NCBI RefSeq assembly: GCF_006228385.1
Contig: NZ_CP039852.1
Coordinates: forward strand, 3,550,001-3,614,000
Source of the DNA: Salinimonas iocasae
GTDB taxonomy: Bacteria; Pseudomonadota; Gammaproteobacteria; Enterobacterales; Alteromonadaceae
Direction of reading: 5' to 3'
DNA length: 64,000 bases
Below the pieces are notes generated by a model that ran no database searches, was not told the origin of the DNA, and worked only from the letters and a program-made list of their open reading frames with translations. Shown in pieces: positions 4,532-10,840 of the stretch (the first letter of the stretch is position 1; the number at the start of each line of letters is the position of its first letter). Position numbers and translations under genes: made by a program.

Positions 4532-5278
4532 CTATTTTTTCAACACCAGCTTGCCAAATACCGATGCATCTATGTAACCACGGTTTTTATCGCCATCAAC
4601 TGGCTCAATATCATGTGAGCCGATGAAATGCTCGCGCTTTTCGCTTCCGTCGTTATCGCAATAGGCCAGCATGAAACCTATCACCTTTTCTGCCTTCAGG
4701 CTTACTGGTTCGCCCGGAGATGCTGTATTGAAAGTGTCCGGGTAAAGCCTGATCGCAACCTCCCACGTAATCTTGTAAGGTGCTTCGGTCTCGCGCGTCC
4801 AGCGACTATTAATATGTTCGTTTAACAAAATTACGCCGTTGCCATCGTTCTCATTACCAAAATCAGCAACATTACCATCCAGTGCAATATGGTAAGCAAA
4901 GGCATTAAAGCTGTGAAGATGGTTACCACCTGAAGCGTCCTCATCAATAAAGATTTCCAGACAGTCATCATCCCAGTATGCTTCTTTCGGATCGGGGTGT
5001 GAGTCTATTAAGACATCGTCAGTGATTTCCGCAAGAAGATAAACAAACTCTTTGTCCCACAATAGCTTATAACGACCGGAAAAATCCTTTTTAGCTGGTT
5101 TTCCACCAATAATATATTTATCGAGTGGATACCATTTAGCAGACCGCCAGTCTGTCTCAGTTGCCTGACCGTCAATGGTAATCGGCGATGTCGCCTTGGT
5201 AACGGGTTGCGGTACGTCTTCAGCATTCGCCGTAGTGGCAAACCATAGTGAAAATATAAGCGAAGTCAGGCGTTTCAT
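4532..5278 (-). CDS. Secreted CBM9-like sugar-binding protein
   Basis: 248 residues with a signal peptide ending near ATTANA (residue 19). The mature part is a single family-9 carbohydrate-binding / DOMON-like beta sandwich: ITIDGQATETDWRSAKWYPL at the start, then LLWDKEFVYLLAEITDDVL and YWDDDCLEIFIDEDASGG, all typical of CBM9-like domains of extracytoplasmic proteins. No catalytic domain is attached, so it may bind a sugar, bind heme as some DOMON proteins do, or be a small periplasmic sensor partner. Its ligand is not visible. It sits two genes from a hybrid sensor of the type often used for polysaccharide sensing, which is only circumstantial. Confidence 0.8.
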   Translation of the reverse strand: MKRLTSLIFSLWFATTANAEDVPQPVTKATSPITIDGQATETDWRSAKWYPLDKYIIGGKPAKKDFSGRYKLLWDKEFVYLLAEITDDVLIDSHPDPKEAYWDDDCLEIFIDEDASGGNHLHSFNAFAYHIALDGNVADFGNENDGNGVILLNEHINSRWTRETEAPYKITWEVAIRLYPDTFNTASPGEPVSLKAEKVIGFMLAYCDNDGSEKREHFIGSHDIEPVDGDKNRGYIDASVFGKLVLKK

Positions 5279-5547
5279 ATGCGGCCCCTATAGGCGATTA
5301 CAGGCAAAATTTTCACCTGGTGTTGTCAATAAGTGTCAGTATTTTACACACTCACGCTGCACAAGTGATCAGAGGAATTTCAGGATAATAAAATTTCTTT
5401 TAATTATCATTATGATAGCTACAAATTCTCAAGCGTCAATATTTTGGCACCTTCAATGCATTATATTTTAGGCGGGTAAGAATGATGTTCCGCATATGCC
5501 GAGATTGTTCAGACTAAAAAAGGCCGTGCTGTTCATTCAGCCAGAAA

Positions 5548-6117
5548 ATGCTAATGACGCTAAATCAATTACCTACTTATGCTACATCCCTTATTCAGGC
5601 GCAGCGTGACAGCCACTTTTCAACGAATACAATTCCCCGACCCAAACGATGCGACACATCCACCGCATTCAGCAGCGATGCCGAAAGTCAGAGGGAGCAC
5701 AGCCATCAGAATGCTCGCGCTTATCACGATGCCATATTAAATACTCGTCGTCGGCGTAAATACGATGCACCCAGAGTTGTTTACTCTTCTGAGACAGACA
5801 GTCTTCCCCAGCAACAATGGCGTCAGGCAGCCACAGAAGCCAGACGCGCGCCAGTAAAAGGTTTATATGCCGGTGCTACGGCCAGACACCAGATTGACGG
5901 GGCTATAGAACAGCTACGTCAAAAGGCGTTATTGTTGCAACTGCTTATTATGAACAACCCGGACGGCTTTATGAGCGCTACGTCCCGAATTCTGTTTGAG
6001 CGCCTGACGCATGTTCAACACATACTTCAAAACGAAGTAGAGCATGAAGCTGAGCGTCTGCGCCACTTTCAGCCTGAAACTGACCGCTGCGGAAATTTAA
6101 TCGATGAGGTCAGCTAA
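5548..6117 (+). CDS. Hypothetical Arg/Gln-rich protein
   Basis: 189 residues with no recognised family. The first 60 residues are polar and low in hydrophobics, followed by a basic patch (NTRRRRKY near 67). Residues 110-185 are predicted helical with heptad-like leucines (QLRQKALLLQLLIMNN, then RLTHVQHILQNEVEHEAERL), suggesting a short coiled coil. No signal peptide or membrane segment. The start is uncertain: ATG at 5548 or ATG at 5554, with no clear Shine-Dalgarno. The 3' end overlaps the stop of the convergent sensor gene by 8 bp. A real cytoplasmic protein of unknown role seems likely but is not proven. Confidence 0.5.
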   Translation: MLMTLNQLPTYATSLIQAQRDSHFSTNTIPRPKRCDTSTAFSSDAESQREHSHQNARAYHDAILNTRRRRKYDAPRVVYSSETDSLPQQQWRQAATEARRAPVKGLYAGATARHQIDGAIEQLRQKALLLQLLIMNNPDGFMSATSRILFERLTHVQHILQNEVEHEAERLRHFQPETDRCGNLIDEVS

Positions 6118-9100
6118 CCTCTGAGCTGACTGTTCGTTCCTGATACTGACTGGGCGTTTCATTACACTGAATTTTAAAACTTCGGCTGAAGTAAGAAACA
6201 GTGCTAAAACCTACATCATAGGCAACCTGGGTTACCTGCTTTCCTTCATCGAGCAACTTTTTAGCGTTAAATATTCTGTAGTGCTTTAAAATCTCACTGA
6301 AGTTCATTTTAAACAGCACCTGTAATTTACGGGATAATTGTCGCTCACTCACCGCCATCAAACTCGCCGCATCACATTTATTAAATGCCTCATCATGGTA
6401 GTGCTTAGACAAGACTTGCATGAACCCCGTGTAAAAGGCCTGGTCTTTAGCATTGGCAAACGCCGGCACGTCGAACGGGGATGGTTCATTTACAGGCGCC
6501 GATGCTTTCTTATTTCGCGACAATAACGACAACAACTGACCGGCTGTATAGCGCAACGTAGCAGCTTCTACCGGCTTCTCCAGAATGCTGTCTATATTAA
6601 GCTCAACACACTGTTCCAACATATCATCGCTCTGCGCATCATTGATGAGGATAAAAGGAATATCCTCAAGTGCAGGGGTTTTAAGCATTGCCTCACGTAG
6701 GGCAAAGCCATCGCACTCGGGCATGTGGCCATCGCTGATAACAAGATCCGGCACTATAACCTGCATCGTTTTTAACGCCTGCTTCCCCTGCGATGCTTCC
6801 ACGCAGTTGTATGATAGCCTTAGCGTATCTTTAAGGTACTGCCGCATATCAGGATTATCGTCAACAATAAGTACAATGGGTCGCTGGTCATCTATACGAG
6901 GAATTCGCGGAACAACATCAACCACCATAGGTGGTGATAGTGGCATTTCTTCGGACAGATTAATCAGAGGTAAATAAACTGACAGGCGGTTTCCGCGACC
7001 GGGTTTACTGTCGATACCTATCCAGCCCGAATTCGCCAAACTTGCTTCTTTGGCTATTGCCAGGCCAGGGAGCCATTCTTCTTCTGAATCTGCATCATTC
7101 TGGGCAAATCGCTCCAGGACATCTGCTGCATCTGATTCACTTAGTGCCTCACCTGAGTCTTTAACCACAATAACCAGCTGCAATGCCTCGCAGCGTGTTT
7201 CGATGGTCACCTCTCCACCGTGAGGACTGGCGGCAATGGCGTTTCGAACCAGGTTATATACAATTTTTTCCAGAGACTCGGGCAACAGGGATATAAACCC
7301 CGTCGCTTTAAGGCGTGCAGTCAGCTTAATCGCTTTGCGCGTAATTTCAGGCTCCAGATTGGCCAGAAGTACGGGAAAATGCTCTTTGATCGAATAAGAT
7401 TGTCGGGGCAGCGATTTAGACGATTCTAACCGCTCCACCTCTGTGATTTGATTAATTAATAAATGAAGACGCCGCGCGTTTCTGGCGATGACATTAATCC
7501 GGCGGGGATTATCCACATCGTTCGGCTGGTCCTGCACCAACTGCAAGGGGCCGAGTATCAGTGTTAATGGTGTTTGAATTTCTTTGGCAACGTTTAGCAG
7601 AGCCCGGTGCTTTCTTTTCAAAATAGTGCGAATGTAGGTCTGGTTTTGCTCCAGCACTTGTTTCTGCTCATCCACCTTATCTGCAAGTTCTTCATTACGT
7701 GCCGCCACCCGGGCTTTTATCTGTAATACTGCATAAATCAGTATCAGCAACCCTGCCAGAAAATAGGCTGCATATGCGTAAGGTGTTTGCCACCAGGGTG
7801 GTGCTACGATTATGGTTATTGTGCTGATCTCGTTTATACGATAATTGCTTTTGATTCGCGCCTGAAGCTCATAACTTCCTGGCTCAAGCGAAGAAAAATT
7901 GACTGCGGCCTCCGCTCGCCCAGCTTCATACCATCTGGGATTATTGCCGAGTAAGCGATATTCGATCAGCTTTTCCGCGCCCGTTAGATAATCGGCAACC
8001 ACAAGGTTCAGCTCAAACATTTTTTCGTCGTAGGATATGGTTATTGCATTCTCAGTACGTTTTACCAGTCGTTCACTGGCATCAACTACCTTATTTTGAG
8101 CACTGTCGAAGGTTTGTAAACCAGTAAAGACTACCCTCGCACTCTCTTTTTCAAAACTTGTAAGACTAGACAGGAGTTTCTTTTTATCAAGCAGATAGGA
8201 AAAGTTGTCGCCAATCACAACCAATTGTTTTTCGGCGCTGTGTAAAGCATCGTATTCGAAGTCGATATCATTTATACCAAGCTGTTTCCCAATCGGAGCG
8301 TACGCCTTTTCATTCAGGCTATAAATGAACAGTCCGGCATTAGTCGCAACGAGAAAGCGCTCGCTATCAACTTCAGCAATACCCCGAATATACTGAAACG
8401 GAAAGTTATCAGCGTTTTTTATCTTTTTACTTTCATCAAGATAAGAGAGCCCATGCCCATCCCCGCACATCCATAGTCGACTCTTAGTATCAAGATAAAG
8501 GCACGTTAAGCCTGAATATGGCAGGGATGCCAGTTTTTCAGTGCTTGTTGAGGAGTTTTCTGAGTTTAAACGGTAAATTCCGTCATACAGAGCACTTACA
8601 TAAACCGTATTTTTATCAGCAACAGCAATTTTTTCCAGTTCACCTTCAAAAAGCAAAGTCGCCCTGTCATCATGCCATTTAACTACTTCATCATGTACGC
8701 CATTACTAAGAAGAATAGTCACAGTTTCGTTGTCAGGGGAAAAAACATCTTTGACTGTTATTTCTTTCCGATAACCGTTCCTAAAGGTATTTGAGGCTGA
8801 TGAATTCCGTGACAATTTATTCAGAGTATAAAATGTGCCTCGCTGATCAATATATTTTATCTCCTCAGCGTTACTTTTTATTAAAAAATGCGGGCCCAAA
8901 GTCGTGAGAGGGTAGCTCACTGAAGATTTCTGCTGAGGGTTATAGGAAAATAACCTTTTGTCTCCTGTAAAAAGAACTTCTTTGTTGTCATCAAAAGATA
9001 TATCGTAAAGTGTATTTGCACTGCTCTCTAAGCTTCCACCCAGAAAATGTGTACCTTTAGCGCCTACTGGAATAGCAAAAAGACCGCGCTGTGTATCAGC

Positions 9101-10054
9101 GGCGAAAAAATTACCTTCTTCATCGAAGGTGAAGTCCAGTACCACCTCCGCGGCGCGGGATGACAGAAGTGGGCTGAGTAAGTCCGGCGTTTTGATTTCT
9201 TTCTCTGATAAATTGAGTTCATAAAGCCTGTCAGCTGCAACCCACAGCTTCCCGCTCTGGTCTCTTTCCAGCTTGAACACTGCTGTATCGTTCGTTCTAT
9301 CCCAAATAGAGTCTCTTTCTATTAAAGGTGTAACGGTATGATTTTGTTTATCGAACCGATATACGTTTTCGTTTGTCCCGATAAAAATATTGTCGCTCTC
9401 TACCATAAATGCGGTTAGGTAAGTCGCTTCAGGGAAATAACTGCTTTTGGCGAAATACGAGATCGAATGGCTGGATAAGTTTAATCGACGCAAGCCTTTT
9501 GTGATATCCAGCCACCACACTTGCTCATCGTCCAATTTAAGGTGTCGGATGTCTGTAACAGTATCAGGGGATAATTCCGAAAGTGAAACGAGCAATCTCT
9601 TCGACCGTTTATCAACAATATGAAGATCCCGAATCGTACTTATCGCTATATAGGTATCGCTGACATCTACCGACCAAACTGAACGTGTGTCGAGGTGCTG
9701 AACAATAAATGGCTCTATTGTCTTATGTCGTCTGTTTAATAAATAAATACCATCACCAAATGCCGCAACTAAGTGATAGTCCTCGTCGAATCGAGTTATA
9801 GACGAAATATAATTTGTTTTAAGTGATGAATTAAGCGCGTCAAAGTGGTGTACTGACGAACCAATTATACCGAATAGTCCGTTTTCTGCTCCCAGCCAGA
9901 TTTCATCACTGGTCACGTCAATTGTTCGAATTACACCTGTTGGCTTTCCATCGAAAGATTTTGAAAAGTCTAAGGGTGTTACAACCTGCCCTTCCGCTTT
10001 TCCAATAGACACGATAACTATAAAAAATAGGACATTATAGAGTTTACTTCTCAT
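6110..10054 (-). CDS. Hybrid two-component system protein: propeller sensor, degenerate kinase, receiver, AraC-type HTH
   Basis: One-protein sensor/regulator (HTCS type). Order: signal peptide, periplasmic Reg_prop beta-propeller repeats (about 30-690), a Y_Y_Y domain (about 700-770), one membrane helix (YAYAAYFLAGLLILIYAVLQ), HisKA-like helix, HATPase, receiver, AraC/XylS HTH at the C-terminus. The receiver keeps its acidic pair (VDDNPD), phospho-site Asp (VISDGHMP) and Lys (LEKP). The kinase H-box reads AKEIQTPLTLILGP, where the family has S-H-E-F-R-T-P-L: the histidine is Lys (codon at 7583-7585). The ATPase N-box (NLVRNA) is present, but the G1 box is DSGEA rather than DxGxG. The start was moved to the ATG at 10054 because it has an upstream AAGGA and begins the signal peptide; 15 extra residues are possible. 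Target genes are unknown. Confidence 0.88.
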   Translation of the reverse strand: MRSKLYNVLFFIVIVSIGKAEGQVVTPLDFSKSFDGKPTGVIRTIDVTSDEIWLGAENGLFGIIGSSVHHFDALNSSLKTNYISSITRFDEDYHLVAAFGDGIYLLNRRHKTIEPFIVQHLDTRSVWSVDVSDTYIAISTIRDLHIVDKRSKRLLVSLSELSPDTVTDIRHLKLDDEQVWWLDITKGLRRLNLSSHSISYFAKSSYFPEATYLTAFMVESDNIFIGTNENVYRFDKQNHTVTPLIERDSIWDRTNDTAVFKLERDQSGKLWVAADRLYELNLSEKEIKTPDLLSPLLSSRAAEVVLDFTFDEEGNFFAADTQRGLFAIPVGAKGTHFLGGSLESSANTLYDISFDDNKEVLFTGDKRLFSYNPQQKSSVSYPLTTLGPHFLIKSNAEEIKYIDQRGTFYTLNKLSRNSSASNTFRNGYRKEITVKDVFSPDNETVTILLSNGVHDEVVKWHDDRATLLFEGELEKIAVADKNTVYVSALYDGIYRLNSENSSTSTEKLASLPYSGLTCLYLDTKSRLWMCGDGHGLSYLDESKKIKNADNFPFQYIRGIAEVDSERFLVATNAGLFIYSLNEKAYAPIGKQLGINDIDFEYDALHSAEKQLVVIGDNFSYLLDKKKLLSSLTSFEKESARVVFTGLQTFDSAQNKVVDASERLVKRTENAITISYDEKMFELNLVVADYLTGAEKLIEYRLLGNNPRWYEAGRAEAAVNFSSLEPGSYELQARIKSNYRINEISTITIIVAPPWWQTPYAYAAYFLAGLLILIYAVLQIKARVAARNEELADKVDEQKQVLEQNQTYIRTILKRKHRALLNVAKEIQTPLTLILGPLQLVQDQPNDVDNPRRINVIARNARRLHLLINQITEVERLESSKSLPRQSYSIKEHFPVLLANLEPEITRKAIKLTARLKATGFISLLPESLEKIVYNLVRNAIAASPHGGEVTIETRCEALQLVIVVKDSGEALSESDAADVLERFAQNDADSEEEWLPGLAIAKEASLANSGWIGIDSKPGRGNRLSVYLPLINLSEEMPLSPPMVVDVVPRIPRIDDQRPIVLIVDDNPDMRQYLKDTLRLSYNCVEASQGKQALKTMQVIVPDLVISDGHMPECDGFALREAMLKTPALEDIPFILINDAQSDDMLEQCVELNIDSILEKPVEAATLRYTAGQLLSLLSRNKKASAPVNEPSPFDVPAFANAKDQAFYTGFMQVLSKHYHDEAFNKCDAASLMAVSERQLSRKLQVLFKMNFSEILKHYRIFNAKKLLDEGKQVTQVAYDVGFSTVSYFSRSFKIQCNETPSQYQERTVSSEVS

Positions 10055-10164
10055 CCCAGGAATTCCTTGTCCTGATAATGAAAACGTTATACCGCGCATT
10101 TAGTGCAAAATACAGTGGTCTGACCGAAGACTAGACTAAAGTTTAAACACAAGGAAGAAGTACA

Positions 10165-10333: not shown

Positions 10334-10840
10334 TCAAACTAACAAAAACTGCATTCCGGCACGTTCTGCCGCGATGCGGTCGTAATCAAAGTCTCCCACA
10401 TATAAGCAGCGGCTGGGATGAAGCCCCCAGTTCGCTGCAATTTGTAAGAGCGCTGTAGGATCTGGTTTGGCGGGCGCGTCTTCACGGGTAATTACTGTTG
10501 TAATTGGAATCTGATTGGTTTCTATCTTTATTGTGGTTGCGTTCCGGCTATTGCGGGTGACGATAGCCATAGGCACCCCTTCAGCCTGCAAGGCTTCCAC
10601 CAGTGCTTTACCTTTACTGAGCCAGCGCGCGCCGTGGGCATCGGCTAACTCTTGCTCTACAATAAACGCTGCCGCCGCGTCCTTTTGTACTGCATCTTCG
10701 ATATCTTCAACAAACGTAAGAATATCCACCCCGGTGGGACACCCAAGTTTCTTTCTAATATCACGAAAATTCAGGCCCGACTCAACCAGAGTGCCGTCCA
10801 GGTCGAAAATAACACCCTCAATATCAGAAAAATCAATCAT
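10334..10840 (-). CDS. HAD-superfamily hydrolase (phosphoglycolate-phosphatase-like)
   Basis: 168 residues. Motif I FDLDGTLVES at residues 12-21 carries the nucleophile Asp and the acid/base Asp; motif II is IVTRNSR; motif III Lys lies in DAPAKPDP; motif IV is VGDFDYD. The cap is a short helical insert between motifs I and II, as in subfamily IA phosphatases such as Gph or PgmB-like enzymes. At 168 residues it is shorter than usual (about 220), with a reduced cap. A small phosphorylated metabolite is the expected substrate; which one cannot be read from the sequence. It lies 12 bp downstream of umuC in the same direction and may be co-transcribed from the SOS promoter. Confidence 0.85.
   Translation of the reverse strand: MIDFSDIEGVIFDLDGTLVESGLNFRDIRKKLGCPTGVDILTFVEDIEDAVQKDAAAAFIVEQELADAHGARWLSKGKALVEALQAEGVPMAIVTRNSRNATTIKIETNQIPITTVITREDAPAKPDPTALLQIAANWGLHPSRCLYVGDFDYDRIAAERAGMQFLLV

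Follow-up and report, generated by a model that had tools for sequence, protein, structure and literature searches.

In the HTCS proteins described from Bacteroides (BT4124, BT4663, BT1754 and others), a membrane sensor, a kinase, a receiver and an AraC-type domain are joined in one chain, as in the protein studied here, and the residues at the interface between the receiver and the DNA-binding domain (REC-DBD) can be aligned with those of our protein (PMC11253607). Phosphorylation improves DNA binding by BT4124 and BT4663, and the S/CHIP-DK contact between the two domains keeps the DNA-binding domain off until phosphorylation; substitutions in this latch motif gave DNA binding without phosphorylation (PMC11253607). 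BT4236 of B. thetaiotaomicron is an HTCS with Gln for the kinase histidine and a non-consensus latch (CSIP-EK), and a phosphorylation-independent mechanism was suggested for it by the authors (PMC11253607). It is the sole HTCS precedent that we found for the question of whether an HTCS needs phosphotransfer, and it is a single case treated in one sentence of the discussion, whereas here the losses are repeated across a gammaproteobacterial genus (PMC11253607). Beyond BT4236, no paper on His-less HTCS, on the present locus or on an exchange of sensors such as that described below was among the 8-20 top-ranked matches listed by each of our searches, which covered few subscription journals. In DivL of Caulobacter, a Tyr is found in place of the phospho-accepting histidine. 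DivL is likewise a repurposed histidine-kinase fold (its structure 4q20 was among the sequence matches of our protein), but it reads a separate phosphorylated regulator, DivK, whereas our protein has a receiver and a DNA-binding domain of its own (PMC4211667). A pseudokinase HTCS has precedents in BT4236 and DivL, and the surprising parts are the recurrence of the loss and the exchange of the sensor.

The gene was found in Salinimonas iocasae, in a window of 64,000 nucleotides (the whole stretch of DNA analysed, positions 3,550,001 to 3,614,000 of contig NZ_CP039852.1; coordinates below are those of the window). Its minus-strand open reading frame at 6110-10099 codes for 1329 aa; with the ATG at 10054 as the start, from which residues are counted here, the length is 1314 aa. 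The HTCS domain order of sensor with Y_Y_Y, HisKA, HATPase_c, Response_reg and HTH_18 was present in one chain with Pfam matches over the cut-off, and the Reg_prop match in the sensor fell below it:

6110..10099, minus strand: HTCS gene with a pseudo-histidine kinase, start at 10099 or 10054
7835..10054, minus strand: sensor, residues 1-740, propeller type by the Reg_prop match below cut-off
7805..7990, minus strand: Y_Y_Y domain, residues 689-750, Pfam match
7421..7606, minus strand: HisKA (dimerization) domain, residues 817-878, Pfam E 4.1e-9
6965..7279, minus strand: HATPase_c domain, residues 926-1030, Pfam E 6.8e-14
6551..6874, minus strand: receiver domain, residues 1061-1168, Response_reg E 3.8e-18, modelled at high confidence
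6134..6367, minus strand: AraC-type HTH_18 DNA-binding domain, residues 1230-1307, E 2.3e-19

The best 25 matches of the NCBIfam search were all kinase models, each scoring far below its cut-off. That the same genome encodes an HTCS partner with an intact His was considered and rejected, as only one of the 12 HTH_18 matches, that of the protein itself, lies in an ORF longer than 620 aa, and the other Y_Y_Y protein of the genome (L001/L068, open frame of about 1500 aa) gave no HTH_18 match.

The initial annotation had claimed a Lys at the position of the phospho-accepting histidine and a degenerate G1 box, together with an intact AraC domain and a receiver intact in its Asp, Lys and acidic residues, and all of these readings held. 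K824 lies within LLNVAKEIQTPLTLILGP, the G1 box reads DSGEA, Asp1108, Lys1160 and the VDD acidic pair are present, and the HTH_18 match is strong (E as listed above). In addition, and absent from that annotation, the G2 box is degenerate as well (EEEWLPGLAIAKE vs xxGxGxGLAxxKE in most relatives), the receiver switch Thr/Ser is replaced by Asn1138, and the S/CHIP latch motif reads EDIP:

7583..7585, minus strand: codon AAA (read 7585-7583) of K824 at the phospho-accepting His position, from the sequence and motif alignment
7145..7159, minus strand: degenerate G1 box DSGEA, residues 966-970
7058..7075, minus strand: degenerate G2 box WLPGLA, residues 994-999
6731..6733, minus strand: receiver Asp1108, kept
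6641..6643, minus strand: Asn1138 at the conserved receiver switch Thr/Ser position
6656..6667, minus strand: EDIP (1130-1133) in place of the inhibitory S/CHIP latch, a motif taken from PMC11253607

With K824 where a canonical HTCS has its phospho-accepting His, the protein resembles an HTCS in its domain architecture but is a pseudokinase version, outside the canonical members. As expected of a pseudo-histidine kinase, the His and the G1 and G2 residues are absent and the domains are still recognised by Pfam, and since the receiver has lost the Thr but keeps D, DD and K it is a partial pseudo-receiver. Most Bacteroides HTCS carry S/CHIP-DK, whereas our protein has Lys for His, Asn for the switch Thr and EDIP-DK as its latch, its D and K being matched by spacing from the published residue numbers; the losses of G1, G2 and the switch Thr are also additional to what is described for BT4236 (PMC11253607). 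A sequencing error at 7583-7585, or chance, as the source of the Lys is ruled out by independent relatives that share it: P0002 (96% identical, the closest among the database proteins listed), P0003 (57%), P0005 (53%) and the genus member G313 (L033/L054, 49%). An Arg is found at the same position in P0004, P0007 (Salinimonas chungwhensis) and P0009.

We searched 59 genomes of the genus, and 51 have one intact orthologue (ORFs of 1262-1347 aa) after exclusion of four without a full-length match (G303, G268, G068, G332), the broken copies of G319, G305 and G327, a copy split over contigs (G219), and a second match in G330 (L093) that keeps the His. Alignment of the H-box among these relatives, a check that the initial annotation had proposed, showed that the His is absent in 19 of the 51, being replaced by Asn (7), Lys (4), Ser (3), Arg (2), Gln (2) or Ala (1). 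Missing phosphorylation-site residues are what these proteins have in common with pseudo-histidine kinases generally, but in a survey of HisKA domains 0.9% (722 of 76,471) were reported to be without the His (PMC12632262). The readable pieces of G305, G327 and G219 keep the His, and the broken G319 copy has no recognisable one. The three broken copies are at loci L083, L089 and L091. Orthology of the genus copies is supported by synteny, as the gene directly upstream belongs to one HAD family in 35 of the 57 fetched loci and a Y-family-polymerase-like neighbour, named by eye from its sequence, was found in 23 of the 57. The anchor in the window is:

10334..10840, minus strand: HAD hydrolase gene, upstream of the HTCS gene

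On a tree of the region from kinase to HTH, built from 74 rows by a quick search with no bootstraps after removal of the trait columns, the His state changes at least five times. P0005 (Lys) was left out of this tree, as were L014, L020, L022, L025 and L027, which were shortened by the choice of frame and all keep the His. Trees of single domains, also with trait columns removed, gave similar counts (DHp 5, CA 5, REC 5, DBD 6). A single clade of all 22 His-less tree rows was rejected (p-AU 2.4e-34), and so was a single clade of the seven Lys/Arg rows of the wider group around our protein (p-AU 7.6e-4), the latter because G168, P0006 and G304 inside the group keep the His; these p-AU values are only indicative, since the groups were defined after the trait was seen. 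The His was present in 6 of the 13 proteins of the near group (P0001-P0013) and in 108 of 108 proteins beyond it, in a motif table of P0001 and 120 proteins listed of 1441 found. It is also kept in 64 of 64 loci outside the genus (from the best 80 loci, the other 16 being assigned to the genus) and in 15 of 15 same-family rows from other genera. A generic loss among the hybrid kinases of the genus was considered and rejected, as all 19 of the other hybrid kinases, taken from 19 genomes of the genus, keep the His; this control is narrow because 18 of the 19 read FLANMSHEIRTPM. As independent His-less versions stand beside close His-keeping relatives, the need of HTCS for phosphotransfer can be tested by comparing orthologues.

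It is probable that our protein is an HTCS in which the kinase has turned pseudokinase and the state of the sensor reaches the AraC domain by conformation, without His-to-Asp phosphotransfer. The periplasmic sensor would detect a ligand, probably a carbohydrate, and the resulting change of shape would travel along the dimeric scaffold of HisKA and HATPase and the tethered receiver to the AraC DNA-binding domain. Repeated loss of the His while the gene stays intact suggests that the sensor may work by shape change alone. The earlier suggestion that the protein signals without phosphoryl transfer of its own is well supported for the His step and likely right, as the His is gone, it was lost at least five times and the gene is intact in 51 of the 59 genomes. 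Signalling by conformation, the role of the kinase as a scaffold, a carbohydrate as ligand and the CBM9 gene (below) as target are what we infer. The reading is favoured by the protein being the only HTCS of its genome and by erosion of the latch across the genus, the latch His being present in 101 of 108 distant homologues (among 120 listed of 1441 matches) and absent in 42 of the 51 genus orthologues. Counting against this reading, loss of the latch and loss of the His are not coupled in independent pairs, and the latch is lost in 16 of 19 His-less rows (three keep it) and in 26 of 32 His-keeping ones. A link between latch loss and His loss was considered and rejected, since in five independent pairs the latch was the same or differed in the opposite direction, and loss of the switch Thr did not predict loss of the His in four independent pairs. 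Genus-wide erosion of the latch may have been permissive for the His loss. The REC-DBD model of our protein (pLDDT 93.5, pTM 0.75) and that of a latch-bearing relative, L061 (pLDDT 93.0, pTM 0.83), differ in the direction expected of a looser interface, though a single pair does not amount to a test. In fold searches receivers were matched, and whole regulators were matched with high rmsd.

Somewhat unlikely, though the likeliest of the alternatives considered, is a receiver that obtains its phosphate in trans, from another kinase (an option also raised in the initial annotation) or from acetyl phosphate, with the pseudokinase part setting stability, acting as a phosphatase or serving as a scaffold. 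All eight Lys/Arg rows in the wider clade of our protein retain Asp1108, the acidic pair and Lys1160, which favours phosphorylation in trans and counts against purely conformational signalling, as a fully phosphate-free receiver would not need these residues. The Arg rows G278/P0004 also keep Ser, a conservative form, at the switch position, and at least one further hybrid kinase of the genome (L191) has the His. However, the switch Thr is Asn in our protein and in the other Lys rows of its wider clade, and the genome offers no second HTCS as a possible partner. The switch position is Ala in the Arg rows G323/P0009. G168 and G304 of the same clade still have the His, but their switch Thr has already changed to Ala and their HELRTP to HELQTP or HELQAP. 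Another His-less clade, of ten genomes, has Asn, Ala or Lys for the His, ER or DN for the acidic pair, and G1 and G2 boxes that are mostly recognisable. All ten have Glu for the receiver Asp, which speaks against a general role for phosphorylation in trans. The loci of this clade are L074, L075, L079, L080, L086, L087, L101, L104, L105 and L106. The other kinase and receiver motifs examined are intact in the Gln group (two genomes) and the Ser group (three), which suggests recent loss of the His. A phosphatase variant is opposed by the degenerate ATP lid of our protein, as the ATP lid is used in phosphatase action. In its favour, the His contributes to the phosphatase activity of HisKA proteins but is not essential for it (PMC12632262). 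For pseudo-receivers, a change of Asp to Glu is described as common (PMC12632262).

That the locus is decaying, the kinase having drifted out of function and the Lys marking the way to a pseudogene, appears improbable. Decay does occur at this locus, as the copy is broken in 3 of 59 genomes (G305, G319, G327), beyond recognition of the HisKA and HATPase motifs in G319, and no full-length orthologue was found in 4 of 59. Against it stand the 51 intact ORFs, the same Lys in proteins of the clade at 49-96% identity, and low dN/dS in all domains of His-less pairs. By NG86, for 26 His-less pairs in four groups and only where dS could be estimated, dN/dS was 0.02-0.13 in DHp (0.07 to 0.28 in His-keeping pairs), 0.03-0.15 in CA, 0.03-0.19 in REC and 0-0.08 in DBD, and in the sensor, where measurable, 0.07-0.20. 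Purifying selection is thus present in every domain of His-less pairs with measurable dS. Between our protein and G313, its nearest partner at the DNA level, dS was saturated in four of five domains, REC alone being unsaturated (dN/dS 0.10), and selection in the Lys clade is therefore inferred from the intact ORFs and the other His-less groups. Low dN/dS argues that the kinase half of the His-less proteins has a role other than phosphotransfer from this His, and the simplest reading of that role would be a dimeric scaffold.

The sensor turned out, unexpectedly, to be exchanged as a cassette. Comparison of kinase-receiver residues 785-1170 with sensor residues 30-680 gave eight pairs that are 94-100% identical in the former and only 24-36% in the latter (G278/P0004, G000/P0003, G168/P0006, G315/G316, G315/G309, G309/G297, G306/G256 and G187/G324), three of which use database proteins from contigs of 6-39 kb and are possible chimaeras, with G306/G256 and G187/G324 on contigs of at least 67 kb. 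More widely, sensor identity was below 60% in 41 of 69 pairs with kinase identity above 78%, pairs that share rows and are not independent. In G306/G256 the DNA is 88% identical up to about 60 bases before the start codon, identity is lost through the sensor, and from near nucleotide 2280 the sequences match again, at 96.7% over 9.5 kb; G187/G324 is similar (88.9% and 85.5%), and in G315/G316 identity ends 234 bases before the start and is back at about nucleotide 1984. Unswapped pairs, for example G316/G309 and G318/G329, align throughout. The boundary corresponds roughly to the sensor at 7835-10054 in our protein. On the sensor tree rows are grouped across kinase clades, and when four kinase pairs and the seven-row Asn group were each forced together on it, all five were rejected, with p-AU 0.004 for the Asn group and, for the pairs, 2e-5, 4e-8 and two values that are far lower. 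Both sensor classes were found with His-less kinases (Asn and Gln groups), so the sensor class does not explain the loss of the His. Cassette exchange was seen at loci L055, L057, L070, L072, L074, L075, L079, L094, L095 and L106.

Sensor allele classes shared across species suggest balancing selection, and gene transfer alone could be the source of part of the pattern. Tentatively, the locus might encode a phosphotransfer-free, one-component-like receptor and be a polymorphic recognition locus under balancing selection, with old trans-species ectodomain classes moved as cassettes before a near-unchanging pseudokinase and DNA-binding module, and with the death of the kinase as a by-product of conformational signalling. 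In pneumococcal pherotypes the ComD sensor differs between the types. These competence peptide types resemble the present case in that strains related to each other carry different versions of one signalling locus, and differ from it in that here no linked ligand gene was seen exchanged with the sensor in the compared loci and the module behind the sensor is a pseudokinase HTCS (PMC5629823). Whole sensors exchanged before a near-identical signalling module document how modules are rewired in nature, and the question arises which ligand or conflict maintains the allele classes. A DNA-binding protein locked on or off, with a sensor that no longer signals, would agree with the lost latch (EDIP), as in the few Bacteroides HTCS thought able to bind without phosphate (PMC11253607), and with the Asp to Glu change of another His-less clade, which can mimic phosphate (PMC12632262), but is very improbable given that the sensors are under selection (dN/dS as above in the measurable His-less pairs) and that intact cassettes belonging to old allele classes are exchanged, which is hard to explain if they are functionless.

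A likely target of the regulator is the gene of a CBM9-like protein nearby. As to linked carbohydrate genes, which one would look for next to a glycan-sensing regulator of a utilisation locus, this family was present within the fetched stretch in 19 of the 57 loci, in some of them several kilobases off. The features next to the HTCS gene are:

4532..5278, minus strand: gene of a CBM9-like, apparently secreted carbohydrate-binding protein
5445..5460, minus strand: candidate operator TGCATTGAAGGTGCCA upstream of the CBM9 gene, a clade-conserved pattern
5548..6117, plus strand: small conserved gene, tail to tail with the HTCS gene

The candidate operator has 16 bases with TGC half-sites 11 bp apart and lies between the CBM9 gene and the gene at 5548-6117. 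The pattern is at the same place in five of the six clade loci (G000, G313, G278, G168 and G323), and G304 has one mismatch to it. It occurs once in the 4.16-Mb genome (reversed control 0), where about one match is expected by chance according to our estimate; only its repeated position is thus of interest, and an operator role would be a guess. The small gene (189 aa) gave no Pfam or NCBIfam match at E up to 0.01, and it adjoins the HTCS gene in six loci of the wider clade. Two genes from the CBM9 gene, at 1859-2617, lies a gene with a thrombospondin C-terminal-like domain and a PEP-CTERM-like end (below cut-off).
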